This document shows, piece after piece, positions 1,930 through 37,093 of a stretch of DNA of 64,000 bases. Numbering within the stretch: the first letter of the stretch is position 1; the number at the start of each line of letters is the position of its first letter. Both the position numbers and the translations under genes were made by a program. This DNA comes from Kingdonia uniflora. Its lineage: Eukaryota > Streptophyta > Magnoliopsida > Ranunculales > Circaeasteraceae. Location of the stretch: the NCBI GenBank assembly GCA_014058105.1, contig JACGCM010001655.1:2356001-2420000 (forward strand). The letters are read 5' to 3'. Under the pieces are notes generated by a model, which saw nothing but the letters and a program-made list of their open reading frames with translations, was not told the origin of the DNA and did not search any database.

Positions 1930-4515
1930 CTACAAAGGATTCTTTTTTTCTGTTGGGAGGTCAGCTACGCTTTCCCCTAAAATAGGAGGACGATCAGCCA
2001 TAAATTCTCGAGCTCGAGCAGTCACAATAAGCCTACCTTACTCTACCAATTCAGCAGGTCGAGAACCTAACTCCATTTCTATGGAGTTCATACAGTTTCC
2101 TCGATCAATATCAGCTCTACAAATGTATCCTCTGTCCGACAAATAGTCGTGCAAGGTATTCCTCTCTAACTTGAGCCTTCAAATCTCTTCAACAATATAG
2201 GTAATCACTGTCATTAACATCTCTGAGCGCGATGCCCCTGGCATAACCATCTTAGCAAAATTCTTTCTTGTCGTTTGAAGGTACTCTTTCAACCTCTTGT
2301 ACCGTGCATCTTTCCATTCCATTTAGCTATCTACACGAGACATAAATTCAAAGTTCTCTTTCGCCTTCTCATCAGCTTTAGCTGATTCAGCTTAGTTCTT
2401 CACCACATGAGCATAAAGTTCCTCAAACTCCTTATCTAAATTTTCCCCAACTGGAAATTTCTTTAACAGTTCATCTTTTTTCTTTATCAAAATCACTTTA
2501 CCTCTGATAACCCGCTCAAACTCTTGTTCCCTGGCAATAGCAGCGTCCAACTTACTTTAGCACACCCTTAACCGCTCATTTCCTTTTTGTAAGTGACCTT
2601 GAGTTTGACCTACATTTCCCTCCAGCTTTCTGATTCGAGCTGATAGGCTAACCACATCCCCTTGAACAATAAAAACCCTAGCATCACCCTTATTTTTCCT
2701 CGAGCGCTCCCCAACCTTGGCAGTTTAAGCGCACAAATTGGCCTAAGCGGTCTTCAATTGTACCACCCACTCATTCAACTCATCACATTTCCTTTATACC
2801 AACTGAAACTCTATATCTTTAGCAGGCAAAGCTACAATCAATTGCTTAACTGCAATTTCTGAGTTAGATAGGCCATCTCGAGCTCTCTTCAGCTCACTTT
2901 CTTTCTCAACCATTTTCTTCTTCAATCGCTCTAATTCACTTTTGGTACTCACTAGATCAGCTCAAGTCTATTATTGTTCTTTTATTTTGCTGATAATTTG
3001 GTCCTTCAAAATGGCCGCAAAATGGCGTAACTCTTTTTCTAAAGCTTTTAATGCCTGAATACGGTATCGAGCCATGTCTGCCTCCCTACTCTTTACCATC
3101 AGCACATCATTATGGCTTTTGATTTTCGTTGCTTCTACCTTCGTCTCCGCGAGATCTTTTTGCCCTTTACTAATTTTGATATCCTTTTCCTCAATCTTCT
3201 GAGTAAGGTCATCAACGGTTTGAGTTGCCTCAACGAACTTGAAATGTACCTTTACATGTTGATCTTTCATATCTTCATTTACCTCTCTCATTCTATCAAA
3301 CTCCACCGCAAACTCTTGGTTACATTAGTGTGCCTCTTTTTCACTCAAACGAGCTGACTCCAATTTGACCTACGCATCACAGATACAATATATCAAGTTC
3401 AATTCAGGAAACTCACTCAAATCATGCATCTTATTTCTAACAAAATTTCTATTTTTTGACATCAACTGTGTAAAACTACTTCTAAACTTAAGGTCGAAGT
3501 ATGATCTTAATTTGATGAACAATAACATATACTTCTAATTACAAGGTACACATTCTCTACATTCTAACTTTTTTAACACTTTGATATTATCTATATACAT
3601 TTGAGTGCGATTTCCCCTAAACTATTAGCAAGTTTTTAGTCTGTCTCTACACTTTAATTTTTACTTTGAAGCTCTAAAGTAATGAAGCATACAAGTTAAA
3701 TATTTCTTTCTCTTTTCTAACCTCTAGCTCCGCTTGCGAAGACAATAGGGATACTGGGGAATCTTTCTCCTTAATGAGCTCATTCACTCATTCATTATTC
3801 TAAGGCGCATGTCCTTAAGTTCTTACAACAAGGTTTATAAGCACATCTTAGCCTACAGAAGTCTGTCCAACAAACAATGTTTTATTAAATTATAATATTT
3901 CAAACCCTTCATAATCACACAATCATAAAGTCGACATTCTACTCTACCTTCTTGTTCCCTTCCTCTAGATACTCATTGTCATCCTCTTAGTTGTCTCGCA
4001 CCGCTTGGGGAGAGATACCATCAAACCCGTCTACGACTCCCACCACGACATCTTCCGCCTCATCATCTTCCTCCTCCACAACATAGGTGTCCGCCATAAT
4101 GTCATTCACCTTAGTTTTGGAGTACCCCATTTTTAGGACGTGGTGCCTATGTCTATCACGCTGGATTACCACCTCCCCCAAATTCTTTCCTATTTCCGCT
4201 ATCAGCTCGTTGATCTCCATTTCTTGAGAAGCCTTCAAGGAGTCCAGTCGCATCCCCTCCTTAACCAAGTCAGCTTGAGAATGAGCTAACTTCTTATCGA
4301 GCTCCGCCTCCCCCTTCTCAAGCTCGGCTTTCTCCTCCTCCACCCCAAGGTAGATCCTCTTCATCAAACGAGCAGCCTACAAAAATATAACAAGCATCGG
4401 CCACAATGTTAGCTCGAATCATCATACAAAATTCAGCATATGCTCAAATCATCAAACTTACCATTTTACTCATTTCCTCCTCACCATTGCAAACTCCAAG
4501 CTTCGCCCTATCCTC
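1930..4515 (-). pseudogene. aORF1 of E0, C-terminal half (coiled-coil antisense gene)
   Basis: Large antisense gene of a Tat-type element, interrupted at 4515 by an LTR. Reading leftwards: an exon end (GEEEMSKM), an intron at 4377-4461, a charged coiled-coil exon (EEEKAELEKGEAELDKKL, then MGYSKTKVNDIM and an acidic stretch to about 3950), a second coiled-coil block near 3620-3880 (NELIKEKDSPVSLLSSQAEL), and a long third exon from 3369. The third exon stays in one frame to a TAG at 1930-1932, ending ESVADLPTEKKNPL. About ten stops break it. They are mostly TAA or TAG where Gln would fit. Coiled coils dominate; no enzyme motif is visible. A structural or scaffold role is possible but only inferred. 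Confidence 0.7.
4377..4461 (-). other. Intron 2 of aORF1 (E0 copy)
   Basis: On the minus strand the exon ends AGTAAAATG, followed by GTAAGTTTGATG and ending TATATTTTTGTAG before GCTGCTCG. That is an 85-bp canonical GT-AG intron. The donor AAAATG/GTAAGTTTG is also present in the E2 copy (6416). A related GTAAGTTTG donor stands at about 11322 in E3. Confidence 0.7.
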
Positions 4516-5212
4516 TATAGTATCCTACTTGCAGCCTTCCAGTACTAGTTAAATAGTTGGAAGCTACATCGAAGCCTACAAGAAACTCAAAGCCCAGCAA
4601 GTCAACATCAAAATTCCACGATGCCTTCCGAGATTAATCAAATACTCGAGCACTCAAATAAGTCATCGAAGTAAGTCGAAGCCAGAACCAAAGACAGTCG
4701 GTCAACATTAACTCCAGAATGACTTCGACTATGGTAATGCATGATTGAAGGCAAACACACCTGATAGCCAGCTTACCAAAAGAATAGTAGAAACAAGCTG
4801 CCAGACAGCTACAGTGTTAGAACCAACTTATCGAACAGGAGAGCTACCCTAAGAGGTATACATGTAATCTGACCTTACATGGTAACTCGCCCCTTTTCTA
4901 TCTCCTATAAATGAAAGAGAGGGAACACTGTCAAAGGGTTAGAAAAACTCCACCAAAAACCCTCCTAACACTACCTTCGGATACCCTGTACCTCCTCTTA
5001 ACTCGAACTGTCATCTAACCCAACATATATATAATCTTCTATTCAAATCCTTGCTAGAAGTCATGGAGAACCCAATTCATGGACTCCGCGCAAGTATGCT
5101 AGCGCATTAAACTAGTTTTGTATAGTCTTATATATTTGCCAAAACCCCTAGCCAAAGGTAACCTTCAAGGTGTAAGAGCTAAGTTTCCCCTCTACAAAAC
5201 CAGGCCACTACA
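4516..5212 (+). repeat. LTR family B, 5' LTR of EB
   Basis: Closely resembles 63327-64000 over its whole length. Shared blocks include CTCAAAGCCCAGCAAGTCAA, the TATA region CCTATAAATGAAAGAG near 4905, and GTTAGAAAAACTCCACC. It starts TATAGTA rather than TGTAGTA, as does the copy at 63327, and ends GGCCACTACA. A primer site follows directly, so this is a 5' LTR. It breaks aORF1 of E0 inside an exon. Confidence 0.85.
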
Positions 5213-5423: not shown

Positions 5424-7764
5424 AAAAATTTATCTTATTTCTAACAAAAATTTATTTTTTGACATCTACTGTGTGAAACTGCTTCTAAACTTAAGGTCAA
5501 AGTCTGATCCCAATTTGATGAACAAAAATATGCACTTCCAATTCCAAGGTACACATTCTTTATATTCTAACTTTTTCAACACTTTAATATTATCTATACA
5601 CAATTGAGCACCATTGCCCCTAAACTGTTAGCAAGTTTTTGGTCTGTCTCTACGCTCTAATTTTCACTTTGTAGCTCAAGAGTAATGAAGCATACAAGTC
5701 AAATATTTCTTGCTCTTTTCTAACCTGTAGCTTCGCTTGCGAAGTCAACAAAGACGTTGAGACATCTTTCTCCTTAGTAAGCTCATTCCCTAATTCTTTT
5801 ATTCTGAGGCGCATATCCTTACATTCCTATAAGCAAGGGTTACAAACATAACTCAGCCTATAAAAATTTATTTTACATTGATCCATACAGTTATAATTCA
5901 TAAAGCCCTCATAATCACACAACCAAATAGTCAACAAGTCTACTCTACCTTCTCATTCACATTCTCTGGGTTGACATTATGATCCCCTTCGTTCTCTCAT
6001 ACGGTCTGGGGCAAAAATCCATTCAACCCCCTCCCAACGCTAGCTTCATCATTCTCAACCTCCTATTCTTTAACATAGGTATCCTCTATAATGTCATTCA
6101 CCTCAGTTTTGGAGTACCCCATTTTCAAAAGGTGGCGCCCAAGTCTATCACGCTGGATTACCAACTCCTCCATATTCTTCCCGACTTCCACTGTGAGCTC
6201 GTATATCTCCAACTCTTGCGCAGCCTTCACAAAGTCTAGTCACTTCCCTTCCCTAGCCAATTCAGTTTTTAAACGAACTTCCTTCCTCTTGAGTCCAGCC
6301 TTGCCCTTCTCGAGCTCGGCTTTCTCCTCCTCCATAAAGCAACACAGTCATCGACCACACTTTTTAGCTTGAACTACAAAATAGAATTCATAAGATATTC
6401 AAATAATCAAACTTACCATTTTGCTCATCTCCTCCTCACCTTTGTGAGTTGCAAGCCTTGCCCTATCCTTTGCCGCTTTCAACTCATTTCCCTCACTAGG
6501 TCAATTCACTGCAACCTTCATCCCTATCAGTTTAGAAGATGGATCTACCCTTCTCTTCAACACCTTCCCCTTGACCTCATCACTCCCTATGGTACCAATG
6601 GCCGATCCACGCTGCAACATCCCCTTCTTCTGAAATACCTGAGCTAGCTTGCTCGACATGGTAGACTTTGGTAAATCTTCAAAATCTACTCCTGAGGCCT
6701 TTGGCATAACCACTCGTCTCTTTATATTAGCTCTCCTCTTCTTGTTGCCACCAATACCCGTCATTAGCCTCATTCCTTGAGACTTTTGAACTTTCTCGGG
6801 CTTGCTATTAGCCCGCTTCTTTCTACTAATGTCAAGTTCTTTTAGTACAGACTTGAGCTCGACCCCTTCTTAAGCAACAATATCTAACAGGGACTTCTTC
6901 CCCTTTACCTTCGATGAAGGACCTATAAAACAACAACGCAATATCAATAATACAGCAACATTCAATTTTAACATTTTAATATTATACGTTATTATACTTA
7001 CTTTGCTTCACAGTTCTACACTGAGGTTCCATAGTTTCTTCATCATCTCTTTGAAGGCAATCACCCTTCACTCATATCATATAATTGTTCCACATTTGAC
7101 TTGCTAAATTCAGATTGAAGAAAAGAGGTAGAGTCAAACTCGCAAAAAAGTATGATCCTCCACATGCAGAATAGTTTTTCACGCCATAAAACTGTAAGAC
7201 GTCATCAAAAGATATCCTCCTCTCAACCTCGTTCTCTACCCACAGCTTATTCAAAAACTTACAGACATTTATTACCTCCCACATATTCCCGTTCAACTGA
7301 GCAGGACATACCCTAATAATATTCATAATCCCTTTCATAAGATTGCAAAGGGGCAGACTCAGCCCGTACTCTAATTGAGATAAGTAACATAGAAAACCCT
7401 ATTTCAGGTCGCCTTGGACATTTCTATCATAATATTCCAAGGAGATCGATTCGTCTAACCCCCTATCTAATTTCTCCTTCTCTAAATCAGCCAACAAAAT
7501 GAAATGTTCTTCCCCAGATCCTGTCATACAACTTCTAAATTACCTACCAGCATGTTTTACAAAATTTCCCCATCTTCCCCATACAAGGGCTTTGGCTTTA
7601 CAAAACTCTCTAAACACATCAGAGTTTGGAGAATAAGATACCAATTCTCCCTGAAAATCTGGAAATTGAACAACTTCTACTCTATCTACCTTATCGGATG
7701 TTACACTTTCAGACTCAGCAAAACGACTGGAGGTTGAGGTCTTAATAACAGGTGAACTCTCCAT
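5424..7764 (-). pseudogene. aORF1 of E2 (Transposase_28-like plus coiled coil)
   Basis: Best N-terminal copy in the left part of the window. It starts MESSPVIKTSTSSRFAES at 7764. The first coding exon holds YGLSLPLCNLMKGIMNIIRV, then CPAQLNGNMWEVINVCKFLN and FYGVKNYSACGGSYFFAS. This pattern recalls the Pfam domain Transposase_28 ('putative gypsy type transposon'), known from antisense ORFs of Tat elements. That assignment is from memory of the family. After the intron at 6923-7001 comes a basic exon (KSVLKELDISRKKRANSK, GNKKRRANIKRRVVMPKASG) that could be a nuclear-localisation region, then a coiled coil (EEEKAELEKGKAGLKRKEVR) and a second coiled block to about 5600. Several stops and an internal deletion that removes the intron 2 acceptor make it a pseudogene. 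The third coiled-coil exon is absent. Confidence 0.75.
6923..7001 (-). other. Intron 1 of aORF1 (E2 copy)
   Basis: On the minus strand GAAGCAAA is followed by GTAAGTATAATAACG, and the intron ends TTGTTTTATAG before GTCCTTCATCG: 79 bp, AT-rich, GT-AG. Introns at the same place occur in ED (37787-37863), in E3 (donor at 11957) and in EM (acceptor at 53795). Confidence 0.75.
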
Positions 7765-8713
7765 ATCAACTACAACTCTACAAATAAGTACACACAACAC
7801 TTCATAATCGGCCTACATAAAATTCCAGGTATTCTATCATTATTTTTACATATACATCCCACAGATATGTATATCATTCATATCTCTTTTTACGAATATA
7901 TCTACCAGAGTTTTATAGGTCGCTATAAATAGTAATTTTTAGATTTGAATACTACAAAAATATAGTTCACTTTCAAAAGAAACACATTCACAGTTTCACA
8001 AATCGTCTACTAACCTTCAATGTCAAAATATGAATCTGACGTAGTACCAAATCATTTCCTTACAATGCTTCTATATAACCACCTTCATGACTCAGTCTCT
8101 GCAACTCTCTCTCTCGCTTTGATTGTTGATCACTCTCGATTAATTTCTGACAAAATTATCTACTATTTTTTATTTTTCCTCTCTCACTGCACTTCAAGTT
8201 TTTAGAAGTTTATAAACGTTTGAATGAAGAAGATGAAGCATTATTTATATTATCTCTCTCTAACTGTTGGCAGTTATTGGGCCTCGCACGAGCCGCCCTC
8301 GGTTTTGGAACTAAGGCATCTCTTTAAAAATTAATGTCAGACATCTTGCACCTTGTCGGTGAAAAAACCTTCCCATCATTGCCCCCTGCCCTATATTTTA
8401 ATATATTTTCATCTCTCTTTCCCAAATCTTCCTCTGACCTCCCCACACTCATGATGACTCAATACTTACACACAATCAAACTATCCCTGTAATTATACCA
8501 GAGATAAAATCAAAGCTGCCTACTTTTTCTATTTTCTACTTCTTCTACTTATAGAAGTACTGACATCATTTCCAAAGCTCTCTACATTTTAAAAATTTTA
8601 AATTTATTTTTTCTAACAGTCACAAACAGTATTTGCAACAAAAGAGGACAGATTCAAACATCATTCTCATTATATTTCTTTGAAAGTTATTCAAACTGAT
8701 ACAATTTACTCCC
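7765..8713 (-). promoter_or_regulatory. 5' leader and promoter region of E2 aORF1
   Basis: Holds no protein-coding gene. The minus strand has a TATA box at 8241-8250 (ATATAAATAA). Before it is a block conserved in E3 (13440-13600) and EM (21392-21545), with GAGGGCGGCT and GAGGCCCAATAACTGCC. Downstream of the TATA box, TTGACATTGAAG followed by GTTAG near 8018 aligns with TGACGTTGAAG/GTTAGG in E3, suggesting a leader intron. This argues that the antisense gene was transcribed from its own promoter. Confidence 0.6.
8241..8250 (-). promoter_or_regulatory. TATA box of aORF1 (E2)
   Basis: ATATAAATAA on the minus strand, aligned with TTTATAAATAG at 13424-13434 (E3) and GTATAAAG at 21542-21549 (EM) within a conserved promoter block. 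Confidence 0.6.
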
Positions 8714-9067
8714 TCATATATAATTATACCTAAAACATCCCAGATGTCCTGGGGAGTTACACCTGATAAGTTTGCCTCCAGTAATTCTCACATCTTCCAA
8801 CTCGATCTCTTCTTCAGCAATTAATCTTATAGCCTCTCCTCAAGTTAAAGGCTCTACAATTTCTTCCCGAAATAGCTCCTCGTAGAAGCGATGTCCTAAC
8901 TCAAGTTCCCTACCCATCCAGTATAAACCATCAAACTGATACTCTGTCACAGGCAAGCCAGCATCATAATTCAACATGCCAAAAATGTACTCCCGCACTT
9001 TAGCTATCTTTATCGCCAACCGTCCCTCAGCAGCATAACGAATTATCTCAGATCGAGTCTACACCAT
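8714..9067 (-). pseudogene. aORFx copy (E2), 117-aa antisense protein
   Basis: Unknown family. One frame runs from ATG at 9067 to a TGA at 8714, 118 codons including the stop. It has TAG at codon 3 and one further TGA. Features: EGRLAIKIAKVRE, then FGMLNYDAGLPV, an EYQFDGL segment, an acidic middle, and LGCFRYNYI at the end. The E3 copy (EGRLTIKVAEVRE, LFGLLDYDA, LGCFRGNYL) and the EM copy (GRIAIKEVELYE, YQ-like LQFEGL, SFKCNYF) align without a single gap and have identical length. No membrane segment or known motif is seen. It sits between aORF1 and aORFy on the antisense strand with a TATA box just upstream. Conservation of frame and length says it was once a translated gene. Confidence 0.75.
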
Positions 9068-9100
9068 TTCTATTTTCTTCTACCTATTTAAAGCTCATTT

Positions 9101-9114
9101 CCCCCTATTTATGC
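9101..9114 (-). promoter_or_regulatory. TATA box of aORFx (E2)
   Basis: GCATAAATAGGGGG on the minus strand, 34-47 bp before the ATG, followed by AAATGA. E3 has TTTAAATAAGGGGAAAATGA at the same place. The short distance means a very short leader or a start further in. Confidence 0.5.
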
Positions 9115-9889
9115 AATTTTCTAAATTACTTCAAATACCCCACAATTCGTATTTATATTCTATTCTTTCACAATAGAAAGCCCTAGTATTTTGAGTAAAA
9201 TTATTTGAATTTATCTATCCACATCGACCTCATTGAATTCGGCCTACTAATCTTGTACTTATTTTATCTAAATCTAATATTTCAGAGCAACCTCCCTGAG
9301 CTCGAATTTATAATTCATGTATATTCTAAGTCTTCTACAGTTATCTCCCCCAAATAATCCTAAGTTATTTAGTTTGAAACAAATTCTTACACATATTTTA
9401 TGTTATAAATACATATTTATAGCTCGATTGCTATAATATAATTTATATATCCAATCTTATATATTACATTTTATTCTCTCTTCGTAAATCTTCAAATTAC
9501 TCATAGCTCAATTTTAATCACAAGAGTTATTCTATATATCAACACAGAGCTTGAATAACCAATTTTTATTGAACTGGAATATGAATTACAGGCACTTTAC
9601 AGATAACAAGTTTTTTATGTACTTTATAGATAACAAGTCTTTTAGGTACTTTATAGATAACAAGTCTTTCATGCACTCTAAAACTACAAATCCATCAGCT
9701 CATCTAAATTTAGTGATGTTTCACTCCAAGAATCTTTTGAAGTAAAGAAAGCATTATAAGTTACCAGACGTCCTTCTCCCTTCACACCATAGTACTCTAA
9801 CCAAAAAATGGGTTTAGAGGAAGTCTGGACATGAAAGCAGAAAGAGTCAGTGCTTGAACCAACTCTTCAAATAGAAGGTCTTCTTAGAG
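9115..9889. other. Spacer between antisense genes of E2
   Basis: AT-rich, no gene seen. Around 9590-9680 a near-perfect 27-bp motif (TATAGATAACAAGT...TAGGTACTT) is repeated about three times, giving the repetitive peptide DNKFFMYFIDNKSFRYFIDN on the plus strand. I read this as a local tandem duplication, not a gene. Confidence 0.45.
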
Positions 9890-10339
9890 CCAAGACACGA
9901 TGATGGTGCAGAAGCAGACTTCTATTCTCTGCCTCCCTTCTCCACTACCACCGTCGCTTCCTCTATAACCACCACCTCAGCAGAGTTGGATTAGATAAAG
10001 AAGGCCCGACCTTAAAATCCAAACCTACACAAAATATTGGTGCAACTTCCCCACAGTTACGTCAACCGACCCATCTGTCTCCTCATCCTTGTCTTTCTCA
10101 AGGATGCGTAGACACCTTCAACGTTGCTCGCCTGTTAAGACAACGTAAGGAAATCTCTACATACAGTAAAAATCTTCTTCAGCTTCAACCACTTCTTCTT
10201 CCAACATATCCTGATACGTCGGTAGAACGGGAATGAGAGTGAGCATCTCCACGGACTGATCACAGAAATATCTCAACTTAAACTTTTTCATCTCAACAGA
10301 AACTCTTTCTTTGTAAACCATTTTCTGAGTCTTCACCAT
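9890..10339 (-). pseudogene. aORFy copy (E2)
   Basis: Starts MVKTQKMVYKERVSVEMK at 10339 and contains KKFKLRYFCDQS, PVLPTYQDM and EVVEAEEDFYCM, then a TAG at 10157-10159. Related sequence goes on past the stop in the same frame (RFPYVVLTGEQ, then a charged segment) and, after a frame change, ends in an acidic tail (SNSAEVVVIEEATVVVEKGG) like the one in E1. The E3 and EM copies also stop at or within one codon of this position. No known domain is recognised. A short secreted or membrane protein is not supported, since there is no signal peptide. It lies 340 bp before the 3' LTR with a strong TATA box. Confidence 0.7.
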
Positions 10340-10407
10340 TGTCAATCTAGACTTCCAAAAAATTTTGCAACAAACAGCGTACTTTGCCAAGATCCACGGC
10401 ACATGCA

Positions 10408-10418
10408 CTATTTATATA
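10408..10418 (-). promoter_or_regulatory. TATA box of aORFy (E2)
   Basis: TATATAAATAG on the minus strand, 69 bp before the ATG at 10339: a near-ideal plant TATA box at a normal distance. Confidence 0.65.
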
Positions 10419-10676: not shown

Positions 10677-11276
10677 TGTAGGGACCTATCCCTTGATATA
10701 ACCCAATTCAAACTACTTCCATATCATACTCACGCATTCTACACGTGACATAAATAGTCAGCAATGAGACCTACGCCATGAACTGATGAAGAATGAGGGT
10801 CGAGAATAGTAGAAAAGCATGAACAAGTCAAAGGTACCTGTCTCTCACAAACTCAGTAGTTATTCAGCCAAACACCACTTACCACATTATTTAGAGAATG
10901 TGATTCAGCACAATAACGAATTATGGGCAAGTCCTATATAAAGAAAAAGTTCCATAAGAGACAAGAACCAGATAATAATACGAGAAATCACCAAGAAAAC
11001 TATATTTTCTAGATTCTCAAACATTAAATTTCTTATTTACATGATCAAGTATTTCTAGCACGAGAGATCACTTGTAATAAGATATCAGCCTCAAGCAATA
11101 AAAGTCATTGTTACTAAAACCCTCAACTTGAGGTCATGGTTTTTTTTACCTATTCCGAGTTATTCCACGCTAAATCACATATGCCATTTCTTACTTTACA
11201 TTAGTTTTTTCCACAGGAACATTGTTGTAAGAGCTAATTCTGATCCATCACAAGCTTACGGAATTAGGCCATTACA
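10677..11276 (+). repeat. LTR family A, 3' LTR of E2
   Basis: Starts TGTAGGGACCTATCCC, carries CCTATATAAAG near 10936 and ends GGAATTAGGCCATTACA. To its right lies an aORF1 intron donor (reverse complement of ACTTAC) within 50 bp, so this LTR stands in an intron of the E3 antisense gene. Confidence 0.85.
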
Positions 11277-12782
11277 AATATCACTTTGAAAATAGCCAAT
11301 TACATTAATTCCACATATCAAACTTACCTTGCACAAATCCTCATGAATTGCAAATTTTACCTTCTCAACATCCTCTAACACTATTGCCTTAAACTTATTT
11401 ACCAAAGCCAGCAGCTCATCATCCAAGCTCGATGCCCCAACATCATCCTTTAGCTTATTCGAACGACAAGGATTATCCATCTTCCTCTTCTTCAAATCAC
11501 CCTCGACCTCCGTACTTTCTGCGTTCATGAAGGTCGACACAGAAGTCTTTAGTTTTCTCTTCTTGGAAACCTTGTGGCTGGTGGTTCCAGGCTAACCCCA
11601 CTAGCTTACAGTTTCCTAGTAGGTAATGGAACTTTTCTAAATGAGGGTAAAGCCAAATCACTGTCCCCTATTTTGTCTACCGCAGTTAGAGACTCAGCCG
11701 ATGATAAAATCCCACCTTCCATTCATTTTTGTCGCTTTTGACATCTGGATTTTAACAGATTTACTGTTCACCCTCTTCTGCCTACTTATCTTTAGTTCGA
11801 ATACTACAACTTTTAGGTCAACTCCCTTTCGAGCTAATGTATCGATCAAAGATTCTCCTCTCTTTACTTTAGAACGAGGATCTGTATACAACACAAATAC
11901 TGTCATAAACCAATAGAAAAAAATAGGCACAGTTCAAAATTAGTAAGATTTACTTACGCTTCTTAATAGCGTTATATTTAAGAAATAGGGTGTCCTTGTC
12001 AGCTCGTTGGAGACACTCGCCTTTCACCAAATCATATTATTATTCCATACTCTTCTAGCATAATTAAGGTCAAAAAATTGGGGCCGGGTCAAGCTGGAAG
12101 AGAAGTATACATCCCCGGATAAAGTAACGTATTTCACAGTATAATACTTCAAAACATTGGAAGGAGTTATTTCTCTCATTCCCCTCATGGGCCCACCTCC
12201 TATTTAAATTCTCACAGACATTGATCACCTCCCACATATTACTATTTAGCTGGGTTGGGCATGCCTTGATCTTGTTCATGATACCTTTCGCAAGGTTGCT
12301 AAAGGTACCACCAACCCATATTCAAACAGGGATAAATAACATAAAAAATACTCATCCAAATCACCTCCAATATTCCTACCAAAATACTCAAAAACAATAA
12401 ACTCTGGTATTTTCTTGAATTTTCTCGTGCTCCAAGTCAAGCAGCAAGAAAAACATGTTTTTACTCCCCTTTCCATCAGAACACCCCCTAAAAACTCTCC
12501 CATCATACTCCATTACATCCCCCATACACCAACTATACTACTTTTACATTTACAATACTCCATAAACATATCTTAGTTTACAGGATACCTATAGAGATTA
12601 CTAGGGAAATTTGGAAATTTAACTTTTTCATCCCCTTCCCTCTCCTCTATGTTGCTCTCCTCCTTAATATCTCGATCGACTGCATTCGAGCTAAACTTAA
12701 TAAGTTTGCCCCCCACAGAGTTGGCACCCTCACATCCTACATCATTTTTCTCACTCAAATGATCCGAGGTGGAAGGCTCCAT
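11277..12782 (-). pseudogene. aORF1 of E3, N-terminal half
   Basis: Starts MEPSTSDHLSEKNDVGCE at 12782. The first exon has EYGLVVPLATLRKVS, then ACPTQLNSNMWEVINVCENL and FQCFEVLYCEIRYFIRG, matching the E2 copy (GLSLPLCNLMKG, CPAQLNGNMWEVINVC). After an intron (donor GTAAGTAAATC, high end 11957; the acceptor reads TTCTATTG and is probably mutated) the basic exon holds DPRSKVKRGESLIDTLARKG and ELKISRQKRVNSK. The exon ending FAIHEDLCK is followed by a GTAAGTTTGATA donor near 11322, then the E2 LTR cuts the intron at 11276. Frameshifts and stops are present. Role as for the other copies: unknown, with a Transposase_28-like N-terminus. Confidence 0.7.
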
Positions 12783-12912
12783 ATATCAAACTATATGCTC
12801 AAAAAAGAATGACATCTACTTCTACGTACTTTTGTATGAATCTACACCTACATTAAGGTCCAGGTATTTCAATCAATTTCTATATTTCTCTTTACTTGTT
12901 GTTTTTTACCAA

Positions 12913-12918
<6 letters not shown>

Positions 12919-12949
<31 letters not shown>
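12919..12949. repeat. (AT)n microsatellite
   Basis: About 16 uninterrupted AT dinucleotides in the antisense leader region of E3. Confidence 0.9.
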
Positions 12950-12952
<3 letters not shown>

Positions 12953-13423
12953 TATATTATTTTTCATCACTCTACAATACATAACACTAAAAAAAGAAAA
13001 CCAGATTTTAAAAAGACCATTTTTCCCCTAAACCTTACAGGAGCAAATTTTGTCTATATAGTAAACCTTTTAAATTTCAAATACAAAAAACAAGAGGGAA
13101 TACACTATGAACGCAAAAATGAGGAATCATCACATCCATACACAGACAGTCATATCAAGCACATACGATATTCATAGAAATACCTAACCTTCAACGTCAG
13201 AAAAGGAATTAGGCATCGTGAACGCATCCTTCTTCACAACAGAACTCTATACCAATAATTTTTCCGCAACCCCAACAATGAAAACTTCCTCTTCCCTATG
13301 AAACTGATACCTACTCATGAGGTTTTTCTCTCCAAAATATTTGCAATCAAACTTTTTTTTTCTCTCTCTCTAGATTTTTGCTTCTCTATTTTCTGTAAAC
13401 GTTAAGAAGAAGAGAGAGTGTGA

Positions 13424-13434
13424 CTATTTATAAA
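13424..13434 (-). promoter_or_regulatory. TATA box of aORF1 (E3)
   Basis: TTTATAAATAG on the minus strand, followed by TCACACTCTCTC, a typical plant initiator-like CA and CT-rich leader. Confidence 0.65.
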
Positions 13435-13844
13435 TTTTCTTTCTAACCGCTGGTAATTTTTGGGACTCACGTAAGTCGCCCTCAATTTTGTAGCCAAAGA
13501 GTCTCTTATTCTCTTCCTGCCAGACGACTCATACCTTTTGGGTATAAATACCTTTTCATCATTACCCCAAACCCTATAATTAAATATACCTTCCCACATC
13601 TATGATGGCAAAATCCCCTCATACAAAATCGATCAATACCTTTACAATAAATCTCATACTCTTAAATTCATATCTTCCTACTTACTTATAACAACTTCAC
13701 CGTCATTCCAAATGCTCCAATATTTAAAATTCAAAAACAAAATCCTAAACCACTTTTACATAAAATAAGGAACATAATCAGACCAAAAATATTATTAACT
13801 TATATACAGTTACATTATTTCGACCTACATACATGATCGACCTT

Positions 13845-14198
13845 TCAAAGATAGTTACCTCTAAAACAACCAAGGTTCCCTGCAGTACCACATCTGATTA
13901 GTTCCCCATATAAAATCATCTTATCTTCAGCAGCTATCTTATAAATTACAATCACTTTCACAGTAGTTCTTCAAATTTCAGGCTTGACGATCGTTTCATG
14001 GAATACCTCACACCAAAAATGACGATCAACTTCATTCTCCCTAGCCCTTGCATTCAACCCATCCGTCTATAATGCAGAAACAGGAAAATCGGCATCATAA
14101 TCGAGCAACCCAAATAACCTTTCACGAACTTCAGCTACCTTTATAGTCAAACGCCCTTCAACCGCATGTTTAACTCTCTTAAGGAAAGTCCTCAACAT
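13845..14198 (-). pseudogene. aORFx copy (E3), 117-aa antisense protein
   Basis: Frame from ATG at 14198 to TGA at 13845: 118 codons including stop, identical in length to the E2 and EM copies. Sequence features: HAVEGRLTIKVAEVRERLFG, LLDYDADFPV, a TDGLNARAREN segment, CEVFHETIVKP, then LIRCGTAGNLGCFRGNYL at the end. Two internal stops: a TAG, and a TGA which falls at the same codon as a TGA in the E2 copy. Unknown function. No domain recognised. Confidence 0.75.
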
Positions 14199-14227: not shown

Positions 14228-14239
14228 CTTATTTAAAAG
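14228..14239 (-). promoter_or_regulatory. TATA-like box of aORFx (E3)
   Basis: TTTTAAATAAGG on the minus strand followed by GGAAAATGA, aligned with ATAAATAGGGGGAAATGA in E2. Confidence 0.45.
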
Positions 14240-14729
14240 ACCAAAGTACGATATCATCCAATCCCATCTTGTACACCTATCAAATACTACCTGATATACA
14301 TCACATTTGTCATAGTTATCCACTCTAACCAACATAGCATATCTCACCGCCTCAAATCAAGAAATACAAACTACTTGGTAATATTTTTATCCATTAATTT
14401 TTCAAACTATACTTTTATTAAATCAGTTCGAGAGGTGCACGCATATTTTTATCATACATACTAAGTTCAATTTTCAGCATTCCGTTCAAATGACCTACCA
14501 TTCGACAAATATTTCATATTTTGATCTCACCATATTATATTATACAATTTGATATTATCATTTTCATCTACTAATTCCGAGCTTTAGACATTTAATATCA
14601 TAATAACCATTTTCATTAGCTCAAACTACAAATTACAAATTACTTTACAGGAAACAGTAAGGTACAAAACTTCTTACAGATTGTTCTATAGATTATAATC
14701 ACTATCTGGTATTGGCAAAAAATTTAAGT
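14240..14729. other. Spacer between antisense genes of E3
   Basis: AT-rich, no gene or repeat recognised. Confidence 0.4.
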
Positions 14730-15212
14730 ACGAACATCAGTAGATTCGTCAACCTCTGAGACCACCACTTCTTCAAAAAAGCGAAGATGGTTATAACAGA
14801 AGTCTTCCACCTCTGAAACTACCACTTTTACAAGAAAATAAAGATGGTTGTAACATAAGTATACTTCTACCACCGCCTCCACCTACAGGACCCAATCACT
14901 CATAAGATAACGGCGAGACTTCCTTACACGGACGCCAGCTGCCTCATCCTCCTTAGTTATGGTATCCTCTATAAGCAAACGAAGGCATGCCCTACATTGC
15001 TCCCCCTCTTCAACCAGATAATGGAACCGCACCATCTAGTAGTAGTCATTATCTGCCTCCACTACGTCCTCGTATGTCATACCGTGATAGATGGGATGCA
15101 CTGGAATGGGAACAGGAAGATCTAAGGACTGCATCCCAAAGTAGTGAAACTTGAGTTCTTCCACTTTGGCAAAAACCCTAAATTCATAAACATGACATTT
15201 GGTTCTCACCAT
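14730..15212 (-). pseudogene. aORFy copy (E3)
   Basis: Starts MVRTKCHVYEFRVFAK at 15212. Key motif: VEELKFHYFGMQSLDLP, then PIPVHPIYHGMTYEDVV and EADNDYY before a TAG at 15036-15038 (58 aa). Related sequence continues in frame after the TAG (MVRFHYLVEEGEQCRA, then a charged segment) to another TAG near 14897, and an acidic VEAVVEV/EEVVVSEVDE tail follows. The EM copy has YFGQQSLADPTPIPVEPMYQ. Unknown family. TATA box 67-76 bp upstream. Confidence 0.72.
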
Positions 15213-15278: not shown

Positions 15279-15288
15279 GTATTTATAC
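15279..15288 (-). promoter_or_regulatory. TATA box of aORFy (E3)
   Basis: GTATAAATAC on the minus strand, about 70 bp before the ATG at 15212. Confidence 0.6.
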
Positions 15289-15531: not shown

Positions 15532-16036
15532 TGTAGGGACTTATCCCTCGAGTTGGGATATTATCGAGCTAATACCTCACGCAATATGCATGTGACATAC
15601 GCTATCAATAATGACACCTAGACTATGAACTGCAAAAGAACATGGCTCAAGTACTTAAAGTAAAATATAACAAGTCAAGGACACATGTCTTCCACAAACT
15701 AACAGTTATAGAGATAACCTCTACTTTTTTCCCAATTCAAGAGAATGTTTTGATACATGTAAATGAACCAAGACTATGGTCTATAAAAGGGACAAAATAC
15801 AAAAAAAGAAGGGGACCAAGTTTTTCTAGCTTAAAGATCATAACTTGTAACCAAAATATCAGTCTCAAGCAATGAAGTTATAGTTACTAAAATCCTCAAG
15901 CCGAGGTCGCGGTTTTTACCTATTTATAGGTTTCCACCCTAAATCATGTGTTAATTTTTATTCTTTATTCAATTTTTTGTCACAGGTACATTTGATGTAA
16001 GAACTTTTCGAGTTATTATGAAATTAGGCCCTTACA
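15532..16036 (+). repeat. LTR family A, 3' LTR of E3
   Basis: Starts TGTAGGGACTTATCCCTCG, has GTCTATAAAAGGGAC near 15780, ends GAAATTAGGCCCTTACA. The following DNA (16037 on) is not part of the family, so this is the outer end of E3. Confidence 0.85.
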
Positions 16037-19462: not shown

Positions 19463-19472
19463 TATAAAATAG
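19463..19472 (+). promoter_or_regulatory. TATA box of aORFy (EM)
   Basis: TATAAAATAG, 59-68 bp before the ATG at 19531. Confidence 0.6.
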
Positions 19473-19530: not shown

Positions 19531-19827
19531 ATGGTTAAAGCAAGGTCTCAAACCCTCTGTAAAGATCGTGAGCCTCACATTCTGACAAAGTTATCGGTGT
19601 TAAGTTCGGTACTTTGGCCAACAATCTCTTGCTGATCCAACACCGATCCCGGTGGAACCTATGTACCAAGGTTTAACTTTTGTAGAGGCTGAAGAAACTA
19701 GTGAGGACTACTTCTAGCTCTATCAGTTCCACTACTTCATTTTGGTGGAGGCAAACCGTGAGGACTGTCTTTGTGGCATGGTAGAGAGTATGATGGATGA
19801 TGAGGATAAGGCGGCTTGCATCGTGTA
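19531..19827 (+). pseudogene. aORFy copy (EM)
   Basis: Opens MVKARSQTLCKDREP, has one frameshift near 19590-19610, then reads VRYFGQQSLADPTPIPVEP, MYQGLTFVEAEETSEDYF and a TAG. Related sequence continues (QFHYFILVEANREDC) to a TAG at 19825-19827. The YFG-QSL and PIPV-P-Y-G-T residues are shared with the E3 copy, and the TAG stands at the same place. This gene is antisense to EM, as the other copies are to their own elements. Function unknown. Confidence 0.72.
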
Positions 19828-20531
19828 GAAGCATTTTCACAATTATGGGTGTGTAGGTTGTATCTAGTTTAAATACTTGGTTGTATCCCATACTACTTAA
19901 TAAATATTTATCTTTTTTCTGTCTCTTATAGTTTTATGTTTGCATGTAGTCTCATGAACATTCGACTTTTGTCGTAGACATCTATTTCCTTGAAAATGCT
20001 TTTTACAAACTGTTACCATCTTGAAGAACGGTGTGGCAAAAATTGCCTTTTGGTACTATTCAAAATTTTATGATATGTAGAGGTCCAGCTGTGTACTTCG
20101 ACCTAACGCTTTATCTCAATTTCTATAAACCAGCCCTAACTAATACATAAAACATTTGCTTCTCCAAAACTTGCCTTGTTTAGATTTAGGGGTGCTTATG
20201 TCCAGGGATTTGCTTAGAATATAGTATTTCCAAGAAAATCTTCAGCTTTTTGTATATAAGAAATTCACCTTTGGCATAATTCAAATGTCGATGTAATACA
20301 AAATGGACGACCAGTATCTCGAATTATTTTCCTTTATTGTTCTGAGGGAACGATATTCAAACTGTGACTAATCGTGACATGTTCTTTTGCCAACTACACT
20401 TTTTCCTATTTCTGAGGATTATGTTTTATTGGGAATATACTTTGACTTTCACGGATAACTTTGCTTCCCTATAATCTTGCATTGGTGATTTGTATGCAAT
20501 ATATTATTTCTAAAATTTTATATTCTTTCTG

Positions 20532-20540
20532 TATATAAAG
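20532..20540 (+). promoter_or_regulatory. TATA box of aORFx (EM)
   Basis: TATATAAAG followed by GGGTG, about 76 bp before the ATG at 20616. A pyrimidine-rich TTTTCCTTTTCTTTGTAG just before the ATG could be a leader splice acceptor. Confidence 0.6.
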
Positions 20541-20615: not shown

Positions 20616-20969
20616 ATGGTGAGGACACGTTCCCAGCGTCAACATTGTGCAATGGTGGGAAGGATAGCCATAAAAGAGGTTGAACTCTATGAATGATTTT
20701 TCCAACTGCTACCATATGATACTGTACTGCCTGAATGGTATTTACAATTTGAAGGGTTAAACGTGGAAGAGAGTCTTAGGGAACTGGATCATCACTTCTA
20801 GTTTGATGTCTTCCGTAACCTAATCCTTGATACAGGAGCTCAGGAAATTGTTGTGAAGGAGATCGTGTTGGACAAGATTGCTGAAGCGGACGTGAGAGAT
20901 GCGGATAGCGAGATAATCCCTTGTAGTGAACCCAACCATCCTAGTAGCTTTAAATGTAACTACTTTTGA
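20616..20969 (+). pseudogene. aORFx copy (EM), 117-aa antisense protein
   Basis: ATG at 20616 to TGA at 20967-20969: 354 nt, the same length as the copies in E2 and E3 despite many substitutions. MVRTRSQRQHCAMVGRIAIK, then LLPYDTVLPEWYLQFEGLN, LRELDHHF, VFRNLILDTGAQEIV, a charged middle, and SSFKCNYF at the end. Two internal stops (TGA where an Arg fits, and TAG). The frame is uninterrupted by indels. No known domain. Predicted soluble, with mixed charge. Confidence 0.75.
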
Positions 20970-21391: not shown

Positions 21392-21560
21392 ATGGTAGGT
21401 TTGAAAAGGGGCAATAATGAGAAGGTTTATTTTCCCAATAGAGATGACGTGAATAAGTGGCAGATGGGAAAAGATGCCTCTTTATTAAAACCAAGGGCGG
21501 CTGGCATGTGTCTCCAAGAACCATCGTTTCACCCAAGAAAGAGTATAAAGTTTTGTCTTT
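21392..21560 (+). promoter_or_regulatory. Promoter block of aORF1 (EM) with TATA box
   Basis: TATA box GTATAAAG at 21542-21549. The preceding 150 bp (GGGGCAATAATGAGAAGGT, then CCAAGGGCGGCTGGCATGTG) align with the blocks upstream of the aORF1 TATA boxes in E2 and E3. A 108-codon open frame crosses this block but is not shared as a protein, so I read it as regulatory DNA. Confidence 0.55.
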
Positions 21561-22056: not shown

Positions 22057-22579
22057 TGTAGTAGACTACTCGACAATATCGGCCACCAGTAGTCTACTAG
22101 ATAAAGTATCGACCTTCAGTAAGCCACACATGACAAGGACCCATACTCGGCATCAATTATTATCAGGAGACAATACCAACATCGTCTAACGATCGATCTA
22201 ACGGCGCAAGCCGCACAAAGCAAAAATAGTTGTAAAGTAGAATAACTAAATGATGATTGTTTGTAAAGGGTAAAAGGGGAATATCCGAGAGAGACCTGAA
22301 GGCTCTCCCTAGGAAACCTATAAATAGGAGAGGGAGGGCTAAAGGGAGGAAGAAGGAGAAGGAGAGGACTGGACCATACTATCAAGAGCGTTTTAGCCAT
22401 CACAAAAGAGAAATATATACCCCTCAATGTTATAATATCCTCCAAGGAGGTCGTGAGGAGTCCCCTTTATAGGAACTCGCAGATATGCCTCGCTATTTCT
22501 TTTGATTATAGGTTTTATTACTTGTCTTCTTTACATTATGAGGTCGATTCAGGATCTCCCCCGAATTTATGCCCTTACA
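22057..22579 (+). repeat. LTR family C, 5' LTR of EC
   Basis: Starts TGTAGTAGACTACTCG, contains CCTATAAATAGGAGAG near 22317, ends TATGCCCTTACA. Its partner is 45787-46342, which shares long blocks such as CGGCCACCAGTAG and GGAATATCCGAGAGA. Confidence 0.88.
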
Positions 22580-28140: not shown

Positions 28141-28307
28141 ATTACCTAATGAATGAAGGCGATCAGCCTTGAACACACCCTTAGAACATGATGCATCTCT
28201 TAGAATACCGACGGTAGAATCACTAATATAGAAAAAATTTGTATACAAAATGCCATGACTATATTTGAGATTTCAATCGTATCGCCTTAGGGGCGTGCTC
28301 TTTTTGA

Positions 28308-28835
28308 GCAACATTTATGCAACTTAGACACACACCTAGTATTTAACCTAACCAGTCGACTCTGACAAGACTTGGGGACAAGTACTTTTTGAGAAACATT
28401 TATACAACTTACACACACCCCCAGTATTCGACCTAACTAGTCGACTCTGACAATACTTGGGGGAGAGCTCTTTTTGAGCAGCAGTTATATAACTTACGCA
28501 CACCCCCAGTATTCGACCTAACCAGTCGACTCCGACAATACTTGGGGGTGAGCTCTTTTTGACCAATAGTTATACAACTTACACACACACCCAGTATTCG
28601 ACCTAACCAGTCGTCTCCAGCAATATTTGGGAACGAGCTCTTTTTATGCAACAGTTATACAACGTATACACACACCCCTGAATTCGACTTAACCAGTTGA
28701 CTCTGATAATATTTGAGGGCAAGATCTTTTTGAGCAACAGTTATACAACATACACATACCCCTAGTATTCAACCTAACCAGTCGATTCCGACAATACTTG
28801 GGGGCAAATATTTCTTGAGCAACAGTTATACAACT
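28308..28835 (+). repeat. 85-bp tandem repeat of EC (left part)
   Basis: Six units marked by CTTGGG-type motifs at 28371, 28456, 28541, 28626, 28712 and 28797. The unit holds CCCCCAGTATTCGACCTAAC, CAGTCGACTC and GACAATACTTGGGGG. Two more units stand at 42071-42240, beyond the ED insertion. It lies just after the integrase, where Tat elements are known to amplify tandem repeats. Confidence 0.9.
28831..28835 (+). other. Target-site duplication of ED, left copy (CAACT)
   Basis: CAACT directly before the TG of the ED 5' LTR. The same CAACT at 42071-42075 directly follows the 3' LTR. Removing the insertion and one copy restores an uninterrupted 85-bp repeat unit. Confidence 0.93.
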
Positions 28836-29612
28836 TGTAGTAGCCTACTCGTAACCTTCGACATGCAGTCGAAGCCCACTTCATAGCCTACTCGAATGTA
28901 TCGAAGCCCACTTCATAGCCTACTCGAATGTATCGAAGCCCACTTCATAGCCTACTCGAATGTATTGAAGCCCACTCAATCTCTAAAACAGACTCCCCAG
29001 AGATCCCTTGAAGACGAAGCTTTAACATCAAACAAAGCTTCGAGAACGAACTATTATACTATAGCAGAAATCCTTCGACCTTACTAACACACGATCGAAG
29101 CAGGATAAGACAGACAATCATCTCATCATATTAGACGGTGCATTAATTGGCCCATTAAGCTACAGTGACAGGTCCAACCACAGTCCTGTTCAAAGACATC
29201 ATCAATAAATGTTGCAGTGACAGTACTGACATGACCGGCGCCCATAACTCACCAGAATTTCCTGACACTAATCATGTAAACCTGACCCATACTTGAAGAC
29301 TCAGCTCCTTATATCTCTATAAATAGAGAAGGGAAACCAAGGAGGGGTTAGAAAAATCATCTCCAACCCCTTGCATTTTACCTTCGACCACCCAGATACT
29401 CTGTACTCGAACCCTGTTATTTACTCTTTAGTAATAAGATCTGTCTTAAAAAATCCTCATCAGAGGTCGTAGAGAGTCACATTCGGGTCTCTACGCAAGT
29501 ATTTGTCCATAGTTAGATCTTACTTTAGGTCGAATGCTTGTCTCCTCGGATTAAGGATTGATTCTACATTGTAAGAACCAACTCCCGATCTGAACGAGGT
29601 TAAGTCCCTACA
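28836..29612 (+). repeat. LTR family D, 5' LTR of ED
   Basis: 777 bp, TGTAGTAGCC to GTCCCTACA. TATA box TATAAATAG at 29318-29326. Contains a 32-bp unit (GAAGCCCACTTCATAGCCTA + CTCGAATGTATC) three times at 28876-28970, present once in the 3' LTR, which explains most of the 73-bp length difference. By eye about nine of ten bases match the 3' LTR elsewhere. Confidence 0.93.
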
Positions 29613-29630
29613 ATTAGCGCCGTCTGTGCT
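29613..29630 (+). other. Primer-binding site of ED
   Basis: ATTAGCGCCGTCTGTGCT after the LTR, a one-base variant of the TTGGCGCCGTCTGTG type. Confidence 0.75.
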
Positions 29631-29697
29631 TCCCACCCTACCAATCTCCTTTCCTTCTTCCCCTTCTTTTGTTTTCCACTCCAGTAGATTACCTTCA

Positions 29698-31200
29698 ATG
29701 GCACCCACACACCGTTCCAACTCAGCCCAGGCAGGCCACTCCATTGATGTAGCTGCCCAAATAGCCTTGCTATCCCAACAAGTCGCTCAGGCAGAGGAGC
29801 GCCACCAGAACCAACTAAACCAGAAGCGTGAAAACCACTGCTTGGCACCAGAAACTGAGCGAAATAGCCGCTTGGATGAAGAAAATAGAAAAAACAGAGC
29901 AATCCACAAACTGCGTAACACCGTCTGAGAGCTACAGAGATTACAGCCCTAGGAACCTGTTTGCCCGTCCCAGGTACCAGACCCATTACGCATCTTACGC
30001 CCGCCTAGGACCTTCGCCAAACCTCGAGATACCCCCCGTTCACACCGGTGCCGAAGGTTTTCCCCGTATTATTCCCCCAACTGGCTCCATTCATCTCGGG
30101 ATTAACCCCACAGAAGACTCTTCCGACTCAACCCTCTGCTCCTCCAGATACCCCAGACGCCGTCCTGCTCGGGAACGGCTTGGCAAACGCAGTGCTAATT
30201 TTATATCACACACTCGACCTTACCACCATCGAATTCACCAATCTCCCCCACATCCTGCATATGTTACACAACATGACATCGACCACAAAATACAACCTGT
30301 CATCTGCGTTAGCACGAGCCCTACCATAAACTCCTAGTGCCGCCTCAATAACCCAATCTGCCTCAAACTTTTGGCTATCGAAATACCCTCCAACTTTCGT
30401 GCCCCCAAACTCAGAAAATACCATAACAAAGACCCCAAATCCCACATCCACGAATTCTAAAACTCCCTGAGCCTCTACTCTACGGCTGACTACCTATTAT
30501 GTCGCCTTTTTTCAATGAGCTTTACCGATAACCCCCTTCGATGGTACCACAATCTCCTAAATAGCTCAATTCCTAACTTCGGGCAACTTTTACACCTTTT
30601 CATTGCCCAGTTTACCTTCAACAAAGACAGAGAGGTCAGAGTTGATAGTCTCTTCAATTTCAGAAAATCCGGCAGTGAAACCCACAAAGCCTTTACCAAA
30701 AGATTCCTTGACGAATCATGGAAAGTTAAAAATCTCGACTGCTCGAATGCTATTTTAGCATATTCGAATGCCCTGCCTGACCACAGCCGAGTAAAAGAGC
30801 ACCTACTCCTCCACAAACCAAAAACACTCGAAGAGATGCTCTCGAAGGTCAATGGCTATATTGATCTCAAACGCCTCCAAGAGTCCCGCAAACAGAGCCA
30901 GCCTTCGCAAGCAGCAAACTTCAATAAACCTCGTAGGAGACTGAGAGCCAGAAACGCCCCAACATTGATAACAGCATCAAAGCTCGCAAGAAGTGACCAA
31001 GACCTATTCTGCCTACACTCACTGCCCCCCTCAACACCCTTCTACCACGCATATAGGCAGACTCTAATTGGTGCATCCTTTTCCCCAGCGAAGTCAGACC
31101 AGGCAAACCTTACTGTGCCAACCATAAGTACAACTGTCACCATACCAATAAATGCTTCACCCTTCAATGCGCCTTTGAACTTATTTTTAGAGCAGGACAT
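29698..31200 (+). pseudogene. gag of ED
   Basis: Opens MAPTHRSNSAQAGHSIDV and has a coiled N-terminal segment (SQQVAQAEERHQNQL). The capsid domain starts near 30515 (FTDNPLRWYHNLLNSSIPNF, LLHLFIAQFTFNKD) and stays open to about 31180, including HKAFTKRFLDESWKVKN and EEMLSKVNGYIDLKRLQESR. The ED capsid segment is the best-preserved gag domain in the window. Frameshifts separate the N-terminal segment, the 30.2-kb stretch and the capsid domain. The nucleocapsid motif is not clear. Confidence 0.8.
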
Positions 31201-31869
31201 TTGCACCAGTATATTGTTGATCTTTCAAGCTACCTCGATGGGTCCTACCTCAAATCTCTATCCACCTCTACTACTGAACAAGCTGAGGTGCATATCTATA
31301 GAGTCAAGTTGATCGAAGTTAGCAACATAGACAGTGGACATTCCAAGAATAAACGAAAGCGCATCGAAGAATGTCACAAGCTCACCAATCAGGAGAAATT
31401 TCCTACCCTTCTGCCAGAATCAAGCTGTCACCCTCGACTCGAAGGTATCTCTTTCATCGACTATGATACTTCACACGTTCGTTTCCCCCATTCCGATCCA
31501 TTAGTCATCATGATTAAGATCGAGAACCCCATCCTCCATGCAATGCTCGTAGATACTGGGAGTGCATCTGATGTCCTCTTTCTCCAAACAATCCAAACCA
31601 TAAAGAAAATAGACCTCATAACTGCTGCCAACATTGAACTAAAAGGTTTCAACGGATCGACAGAAGTCGTTGTTGGCCGTACCAGCCTACCCGTCACTAC
31701 ATGCTCCACTACCCTTAAATCTAACTTCATCGTCATTGACAGGAAGTCCGAATACCTCGGTATACTCAGACGAGATTGGCCTCACGCTATCCGAGCTATA
31801 CCTTCGACCTACCATCAGTCCCTTCGATTCAGTAATCACGAGGGTACTTGGAATTTGAAAGGCTCTTAA
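31201..31869 (+). pseudogene. Aspartic protease of ED
   Basis: One open frame of 222 codons. It starts with a linker shared with EC (IVDLSSYLDGSYLKS), then HPRLEGISFIDYDTSHVRFP and HAMLVDTGSASDVLFLQTI with an intact DTG. The flap and tail follow (LKGFNGSTEVVVGRTSLPVT, NFIVIDRKSEYLGILRRDWP) to a stop. The active site looks intact, but upstream and downstream frames are broken, so this is a remnant of gag-pol. Confidence 0.85.
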
Positions 31870-31949
31870 CGCCTTCCCCGCTCCTGCGAGCACCCAGAGA
31901 TCGACCAAACCTATAAACTTGCCAGCCGCCCATAGCAATCACAGTATCT

Positions 31950-33940: not shown

Positions 33941-34129
33941 CTCGGCCAATCAGAATCTCGGACACTCCATATCGAAGTACTCGAATGCCCAAGTATCAAC
34001 CAGATAAAAATCAATACCATCAATACTGGGGGCGAAAGTCACGATCCAGACGATTGGCGAACACCGTTTCATTATTACCACAACAGCACCACCCTCCCAG
34101 ATGATCCCAAAGCCAAACAGTCCTTGCTA

Positions 34130-35230: not shown

Positions 35231-35386
35231 ACAATACAGCTGGTTTCCTATAACAGGCCATATCTCCAACCATGTACGACTGATGTAATCCAGAACATTC
35301 AATAAACAAGTTTTTTAACCCTTACTTCGTCTCCTACTTCATTTTGAATTTCTTGATTTAACTCAGGTGTCATATCAACCTTCGAC

Positions 35387-36558: not shown

Positions 36559-37093
36559 TCATATCGGTGCGGTTACACCTTCTTGCTTCACAGATCCCCC
36601 AGCAGCTTCATTCGAACCTTCGACGATCAGACCATCAACAGTTTTACCAATGGGTGCTCCAACAAGAGAAGTATCTGCACCACCTCCAGTACCTCCAACT
36701 GCTTCTTCAACAATGTTTGTCTCCCCTCCCTTCACCTGCAAATCATCCCCGTCAACAAGTTCTGAAGACACAGGATAAGGTTCTAATGTCTCAGGGTCAT
36801 ACTCCTTATCAGCTATAAATCTTGTCAACTTAACATTCGCCTTGCATTCGCCATCATACTGCCGCTGGAAAATCACCTTATGCTTAACTTTCTCCCTCTC
36901 ACACGCCACAAGCTTCGCAGACTACTCTCGTTCCAGCCTCGACCACTACAGTTCGAGCCTCTCGACATAAGAGCCGATAAACACCCCCAGATCCTGCTTT
37001 AACTTCCAGACTTTAGACACCAGTGATGCTTCTTTTCTACAAGAAAGATTCAGATTATCCTTTGCTTGCTTCAATTTCGCCTTTATTGCCAAG

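Follow-up and report, generated by a model that had tools for sequence, protein, structure and literature searches.

The 64-kb window, by which we mean the whole stretch of Kingdonia uniflora DNA that was analysed, is a nest of old LTR elements. The boundaries and tandem repeats that matter here are the following.

28933-42070, plus strand: element ED, with LTRs at 28933-29612 and 41389-42070 and gag-pol on the plus strand
22057-46256: element EO, with LTRs of 470 bp at 22057-22526 and 45787-46256
35349-36015: tandem repeats in ED
28286-28836: tandem repeats in EO
about 10677-11276, plus strand: 3' LTR of element E2, boundaries read by eye
about 15532-16036, plus strand: 3' LTR of element E3, boundaries read by eye

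ED is a Ty3/gypsy LTR retrotransposon, with gag, reverse transcriptase, RNase H and integrase in that order between its two LTRs (Pfam Retrotrans_gag, RVT_1, RT_RNaseH_2 and pieces of rve, all on the plus strand). Its LTRs (680-682 bp) are 90% identical, with a K2P distance of 0.098, and the LTR pair of EO has a K2P distance of 0.155. The insertion site of ED is the tandem repeats of EO, and a weak DNA match suggests that EO seems in turn to have split a further element, EM; the region 22057-46256 would then be a nest of three levels. E2 and E3 are post-pol stubs whose own gag-pol is not recognisable in the window. From the domain order and the antisense TRP28-like gene described below, we regard the elements as probable Retand-like members of the Tat/Retand group. 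Retand LTRs range from 315 to 1194 bp (PMC11963269), and those of both ED and EO lie within this range. The Retand lineage is also described as having a second, archaeal-type RNase H between RNase H and integrase (PMC6317226). Elsewhere in the window, two antisense coiled-coil-like stretches (3428-4514 and 5432-6469) are 75% identical to each other and are possibly a local duplication or two adjoining stubs. Between them is an LTR-like stretch (4516-5150) with 82% identity to 63327-64000.

In the interval from pol to the 3' LTR, a series of genes runs antisense to pol. Read from the 3' LTR inwards, these are aORFy and aORFx (y and x below), followed by the promoter and body of aORF1. In E2, E3, EM and ED, x and y are two short genes of about 105-117 codons, and a TATA or TATA-like box lies upstream of each.

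8714-9067, minus strand: E2 x, with in-frame stops
9106-9113, minus strand: TATA-like box of E2 x, CATAAATA, 46 nt before the ATG
10025-10339, minus strand: E2 y, with in-frame stops
10409-10416, minus strand: TATA box of E2 y, TATAAATA, 77 nt before the ATG
13845-14198, minus strand: E3 x, two in-frame stops
14230-14237, minus strand: TATA-like box of E3 x, TTTAAATA, 39 nt before the ATG
14883-15212, minus strand: E3 y, one in-frame stop
15280-15287, minus strand: TATA box of E3 y, TATAAATA, 75 nt before the ATG
19463-19470, plus strand: TATA box of EM y, TATAAAAT
19531-19828, plus strand: EM y, a frameshift and an in-frame stop
20532-20539, plus strand: TATA box of EM x, TATATAAA, 84 nt before the ATG
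20616-20969, plus strand: EM x, two in-frame stops
39966-40283, minus strand: ED x, one in-frame stop
40358-40365, minus strand: TATA box of ED x, TATAAAAT, 82 nt before the ATG
40776-41114, minus strand: ED y, one in-frame stop
41178-41185, minus strand: TATA-like box of ED y, TATATAGG, 71 nt before the ATG
62820-62999, minus strand: broken small antisense frame in element EF, kin to ED x and ED y by tblastx and translation

Every copy of x and y in the window is damaged by in-frame stops or a frameshift, and the same proteins are nevertheless recovered in E2, E3 and EM when the E2 and E3 frames are used as tblastn queries. The x proteins of E2 and E3 share 49% identity over 65 residues (E=2.8e-17), and the y proteins share 43% over 60 residues (E=2.9e-12). 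From start to stop, x of E2, E3 and EM aligns without internal gaps over 116-118 codons, and y of E2 and E3 aligns without gaps over 106 codons. The E2/E3 differences by codon position are 46/36/63 for x and 40/36/67 for y. The ED pair is more distant. Both of its members match the one EF frame by tblastx, and both also match locus L032, a relative that lies 17-19 kb beyond the right edge of the window. There, x reads without a stop for 106 codons, and y has both a frameshift and a stop. The three antisense genes that an earlier note had described in E2, E3 and ED, and in mirror image in EM, are confirmed as matching frames across the families by tblastn, tblastx and the gapless alignments. 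The set is present in these four elements but is not universal. Neither x nor y was found in EO by tblastx, and in E1, just left of the window (locus L029), x is present and y was not found by profile. At L031, a copy of the E2 family, x adjoins the LTR and y is missing.

The larger gene, aORF1, resembles TRP28 (Transposase_28, PF04195), and its recognised parts and boxes are as follows.

7075-7398, minus strand: TRP28-like core of E2 aORF1 (PF04195, E=3.1e-4, 21.4 bits against a cut-off of 26.2)
8242-8249, minus strand: TATA box of E2 aORF1, TATAAATA, also found in E3, L022 and L031
12073-12410, minus strand: TRP28-like part of E3 aORF1 (tblastx against E2, 47-55% identity in the main blocks)
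13425-13432, minus strand: TATA box of E3 aORF1, TATAAATA
37899-38255, minus strand: TRP28-like part of ED aORF1 (tblastx against EO, 35% over 113 residues, E=2.4e-22; also against E2)
39141-39148, minus strand: TATA box of ED aORF1, TATATAAG
46642-47273, plus strand: probable remainder of EM aORF1 past the inserted EO (blastn against E2 and E3, 56-59%; frame 46995-47273)
6850-7120 and 7700-8260: regions with intron signals in E2 aORF1
11820-12080 and 12740-13440: regions with intron signals in E3 aORF1
3100-3800 and 4480-4900 of genome locus L022, and 7700-8110 of genome locus L029: regions with intron signals in aORF1

EO aORF1 also scores under the PF04195 cut-off of 26.2 (19.9 bits), and the pieces at L022, L029 and L032 gave no match to this family at 0.01. 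By tblastn or tblastx, aORF1 of ED, E3, L022, L029 and L032 is related to that of E2 and EO. The body of EM aORF1 is interrupted by the nested EO and seems to restart at about 46642. For the TRP28 pair of ED and L032, pN/pS is 0.24 over 47 codons, with all frames tested, and 0.21 over 110 codons. Around the TATA box and upstream of it, three families share a conserved block (8174-8410 in E2, 13357-13593 in E3 and 21410-21502 in EM), which is probably the aORF1 promoter region. When aORF1 of E2, E3, L022 and L029 is inspected by eye on the antisense strand, signals resembling intron donors and acceptors are seen at matching places, and the gene seems to be spliced from that strand. The leader exon ends in TTGAAG, followed by GTTAG, and at a shared position in four families there is a second stretch, about 90-130 nt long, that looks like an intron. 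We infer that such introns can persist because the RNA that is reverse transcribed is the sense strand and the gene is read from antisense RNA.

The two small genes resemble each other. Both proteins have an MVRT-type start, and hhalign aligns x with y at a probability of 90.5 (E=1.3e-6), y with the ED-type set at 74.5 (E=2.7e-5) and x with the ED-type set at 38.8 (E=3.2e-4), from profiles of three or four sequences each. With profiles this small, it is likely, though not proven, that x and y are paralogues that arose by tandem duplication. Five x and y proteins gave no Pfam family above its cut-off, and among PDB sequences the best matches to the y profile had E values of 0.31 and 0.97. AlphaFold2 gave no usable fold for x of L032 (6 rows, pLDDT 52) or x of L033 (16 rows, pLDDT 39.5). 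Searched against a protein collection, E3 y as a single query had no match. The y profile matched one protein and the x profile three, all of them hypothetical proteins of Kingdonia uniflora, and these matches, made without a TRP28 control, say nothing about absence from other plants.

Relatives of x and y were then sought throughout the genome. For each query, 150 matches were scored among the first-look candidates (14338 for E3 y, 11216 for E2 x and 7908 for L032 x), and the unscored candidates do not count as confirmed copies. All 150 scored matches are strong for each query, at E<=3.1e-18, E<=1.0e-22 and E<=4.1e-35, respectively. By our own count, 59 of the 150 y matches are stop-free in the matched stretch. 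Fifteen y copies were fetched with 1.7 kb of downstream DNA; they were picked for a stop-free matched stretch, and their openness is no evidence in itself. Ten of them have x downstream, 930-1096 nt from the y ATG, and in the other five x is not within this reach. Only L033 has a stop-free x among these ten. In the E2 group, ten more x copies, picked as open, all have 117 codons with the stop at the identical codon, and eight start with ATG. The earlier note had proposed to look for open frames in other copies, and open x and y are indeed found elsewhere in the genome. Among the loci fetched up to the survey of reverse transcriptase matches (20 places, only three of them with pol more than 50% identical to that of ED), x was found at L022 only.

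Selection on the two proteins was measured over all pairs of copies. For y (17 copies), pN/pS is 0.37 in the predicted frame and 0.51-1.19 in the other five, and for x (16 copies) it is 0.48 in the predicted frame and 0.57-0.95 in the others, the values of far pairs being upper bounds, with synonymous sites near saturation and pairs that are not independent. The nearest competitor for both genes is the opposite-strand frame in the same codon register (0.51 for y, 0.57 for x). Six deep pairs give 0.42-0.57, with the predicted frame lowest in all six. The constraint for which the earlier note had proposed a test is seen in both genes, but not in the recent pair E2/L031, where pN/pS is 0.77 (0.46-1.48) in the true frame and two wrong frames are lower (0.31 and 0.35). 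We read this absence of constraint as decay after insertion. Frame-specific purifying selection with a shared start and stop, found for x and y with the pair E2/L031 against it, argues that they are very probably protein-coding genes kept by selection.

The best-surviving alternative is that the antisense transcripts driven from the TATA boxes work at the RNA level, by dsRNA, siRNA or transcriptional interference, and that the frames are incidental. Noncoding antisense transcripts of retroelements are on record (PMC7264820), and broken copies such as those in the window would fit. However, the constraint is specific to the frame, the alignments are gapless from start to stop, and ten x copies, chosen as open, share a stop at the same codon. 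We thus consider a purely RNA-based role improbable.

Turning to the promoters, the earlier note had placed a TATA box before each gene. A TATA-like string is present at all 12 positions it named, in degenerate form at x of E2 (CATAAATA) and x of E3 (TTTAAATA). In the window, each strand has about 1.7 occurrences of the string TATA[AT]A per kb. For every one of the eight x and y genes, the best upstream box is equalled or beaten at 3-21% of 1191 other ATGs, and because of this the window boxes alone prove little. Counts of TATA boxes in the window were rejected as promoter evidence on account of this background frequency and comparison.

Where the window boxes fall short, the genome copies do point to promoters. 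Upstream of y in the 15 copies, the box is TATAAATA at 72-87 nt in nine, TATATATA at 87-114 nt in four and TATAAATT at 75 nt in one, and L036 has no good box. All ten E3-related x copies have a box 37-40 nt from the start (TATAAATA in nine, TATATAAG in one), and all ten E2-group x copies have one at 44-46 nt (TATAAATA in four, CATAAATA in three, CATAAAAT in two and CATAATTA in one). The TATA octamer is the most conserved upstream window, ranking first of 142 for y and first of 41 for x. Its mean conservation is 0.947 for y and 0.901 for x, compared with 0.759 and 0.679 over the upstream columns; the kinship of the copies raises both figures, which partly reflect shared descent, and it is the peak that is the evidence. 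The alignments comprise 19 y and 24 x stretches; ten of the x sequences extend no more than about 50 nt upstream, and the box of EM x is out of register. From the conservation and position of the boxes, we consider it likely that x and y have separate promoters, and one box per gene, as first suggested, is the reading we favour.

Two further observations concern the flanks of these genes. With the box only 37-46 nt from the ATG (L033-L057), an x mRNA would have nearly no leader. Past the stop of y there is a well-conserved stretch, seen at 14500-14882 in E3 and in the y tails of L033-L046. It contains a 57-bp tandem repeat and, farther on, TGTA-rich DNA and then AATGAAA, which we take to resemble a plant polyadenylation signal.

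The single strand common to all the genes, and the antisense intron-like signals in aORF1 itself, would also suit a model in which aORF1, x and y belong to one larger spliced antisense gene, with x and y as its exons or as alternative first exons. Against it, in many copies both x and y have a start preceded by a TATA box and a stop common to the copies, and the conserved tail between y and x looks like a polyadenylation signal. We regard such a single gene as quite improbable. Still less probable is an origin of x and y as remnants of a second antisense ORF that was once long. Such ORFs are known, in that further antisense ORFs of more than 600 bp occur in other Retand clusters (104 in 63; PMC11963269), and the window copies are all broken. 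Nevertheless, relics would hardly start alike behind a TATA box, share their stops and have the lowest pN/pS in their own frame, and no Pfam family was matched above its cut-off. Chance frames and TATA strings in AT-rich DNA, for which the background frequency of TATA[AT]A speaks, are already refuted for the genes by the strong genome-wide matches, the frame-specific constraint and the conservation peak at the box, and deserve next to no weight.

We return to separately promoted coding genes. The sequences compared show that several Tat/Retand-like families carry an antisense TRP28-like aORF1 in the interval from pol to the 3' LTR, together with x and y, and that all three genes have a TATA box. 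In the families compared, the box of x and y is fixed in position, and the copies have start and stop in common. As the likely explanation, we suggest that RNA polymerase II would transcribe x, y and aORF1 on integrated copies, each from its own internal promoter and independently of the LTR promoter. Since each gene has a TATA box, expression from integrated copies without the LTR promoter is the simplest reading. The x and y proteins would then act in trans in the life cycle of the element, most likely as small accessory regulators beside the TRP28 protein, for example by adjusting transcription of the sense strand, by counteracting silencing or by assisting in the handling of RNA. This regulatory role, as opposed to some other, is drawn by analogy with other retroelement antisense genes and is tentative, at somewhat less than an even chance. 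For the arrangement as a whole, we lean towards an antisense accessory block in which a spliced TRP28-like gene is joined by a duplicated pair of small genes, each with a conserved TATA box, in several families and probably in thousands of copies. If true, the LTR would drive the structural genes and internal antisense promoters the regulatory genes, with tasks divided as they are in complex retroviruses.

The function served by the long antisense region in Retand elements is described as an open question (PMC11963269, PMC7264820). Here, x and y provide defined proteins and promoters to test, and the claim can be checked directly at the fixed TATA boxes. Two published surveys of these elements used ORF cut-offs of 600 bp or 250 codons. 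One of them counted ORFs of at least 600 bp and shorter ones only if they carried TRP28 (PMC11963269), and a term search of its available text found no treatment of promoters and introns of antisense genes. As two small selected proteins under these size cut-offs, x and y enlarge the antisense coding content of the elements. No pair of small antisense genes of this kind was found in the titles and abstracts of the literature searched, where an earlier mention is possible. The earlier note had taken the two additional genes to be undescribed and aORF1-type ORFs to be known in Retand/Tat elements. The latter are indeed published (PMC11963269). Two small genes were not found described, but multiple antisense ORFs per element are already in print (PMC11963269), and within the literature searched only the two small genes look undescribed.

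Among the closest known systems are the TRP28-type ORFs of Retand elements, of which the available text of the survey gives 104 antisense ORFs in 63 clusters, with more than one per element (PMC11963269). Like the genes here, they are coding genes that run antisense in the interval from pol to the 3' LTR, often more than one, with tandem repeats in the same region; x and y differ in being about 105-117 codons long and without a known domain. ORF4 of Silene Retand is likewise an antisense TRP28 gene, and antisense ORFs are mentioned there in the plural, such that a second one may be on record (PMC7264820). HBZ of HTLV-1 and other retroviral antisense genes are also antisense accessory genes with their own promoter (PMC11963269, PMC7264820). 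This is an analogy only, since the element is unrelated and the HBZ-type antisense promoter lies in the 3' LTR. Gene23 of maize Grande, whose product is a nuclear protein, is an antisense gene with a promoter just upstream, as proposed here (PMC7264820). However, one gene is described there, whereas the Kingdonia elements carry three, two of them small and apparently related to each other.
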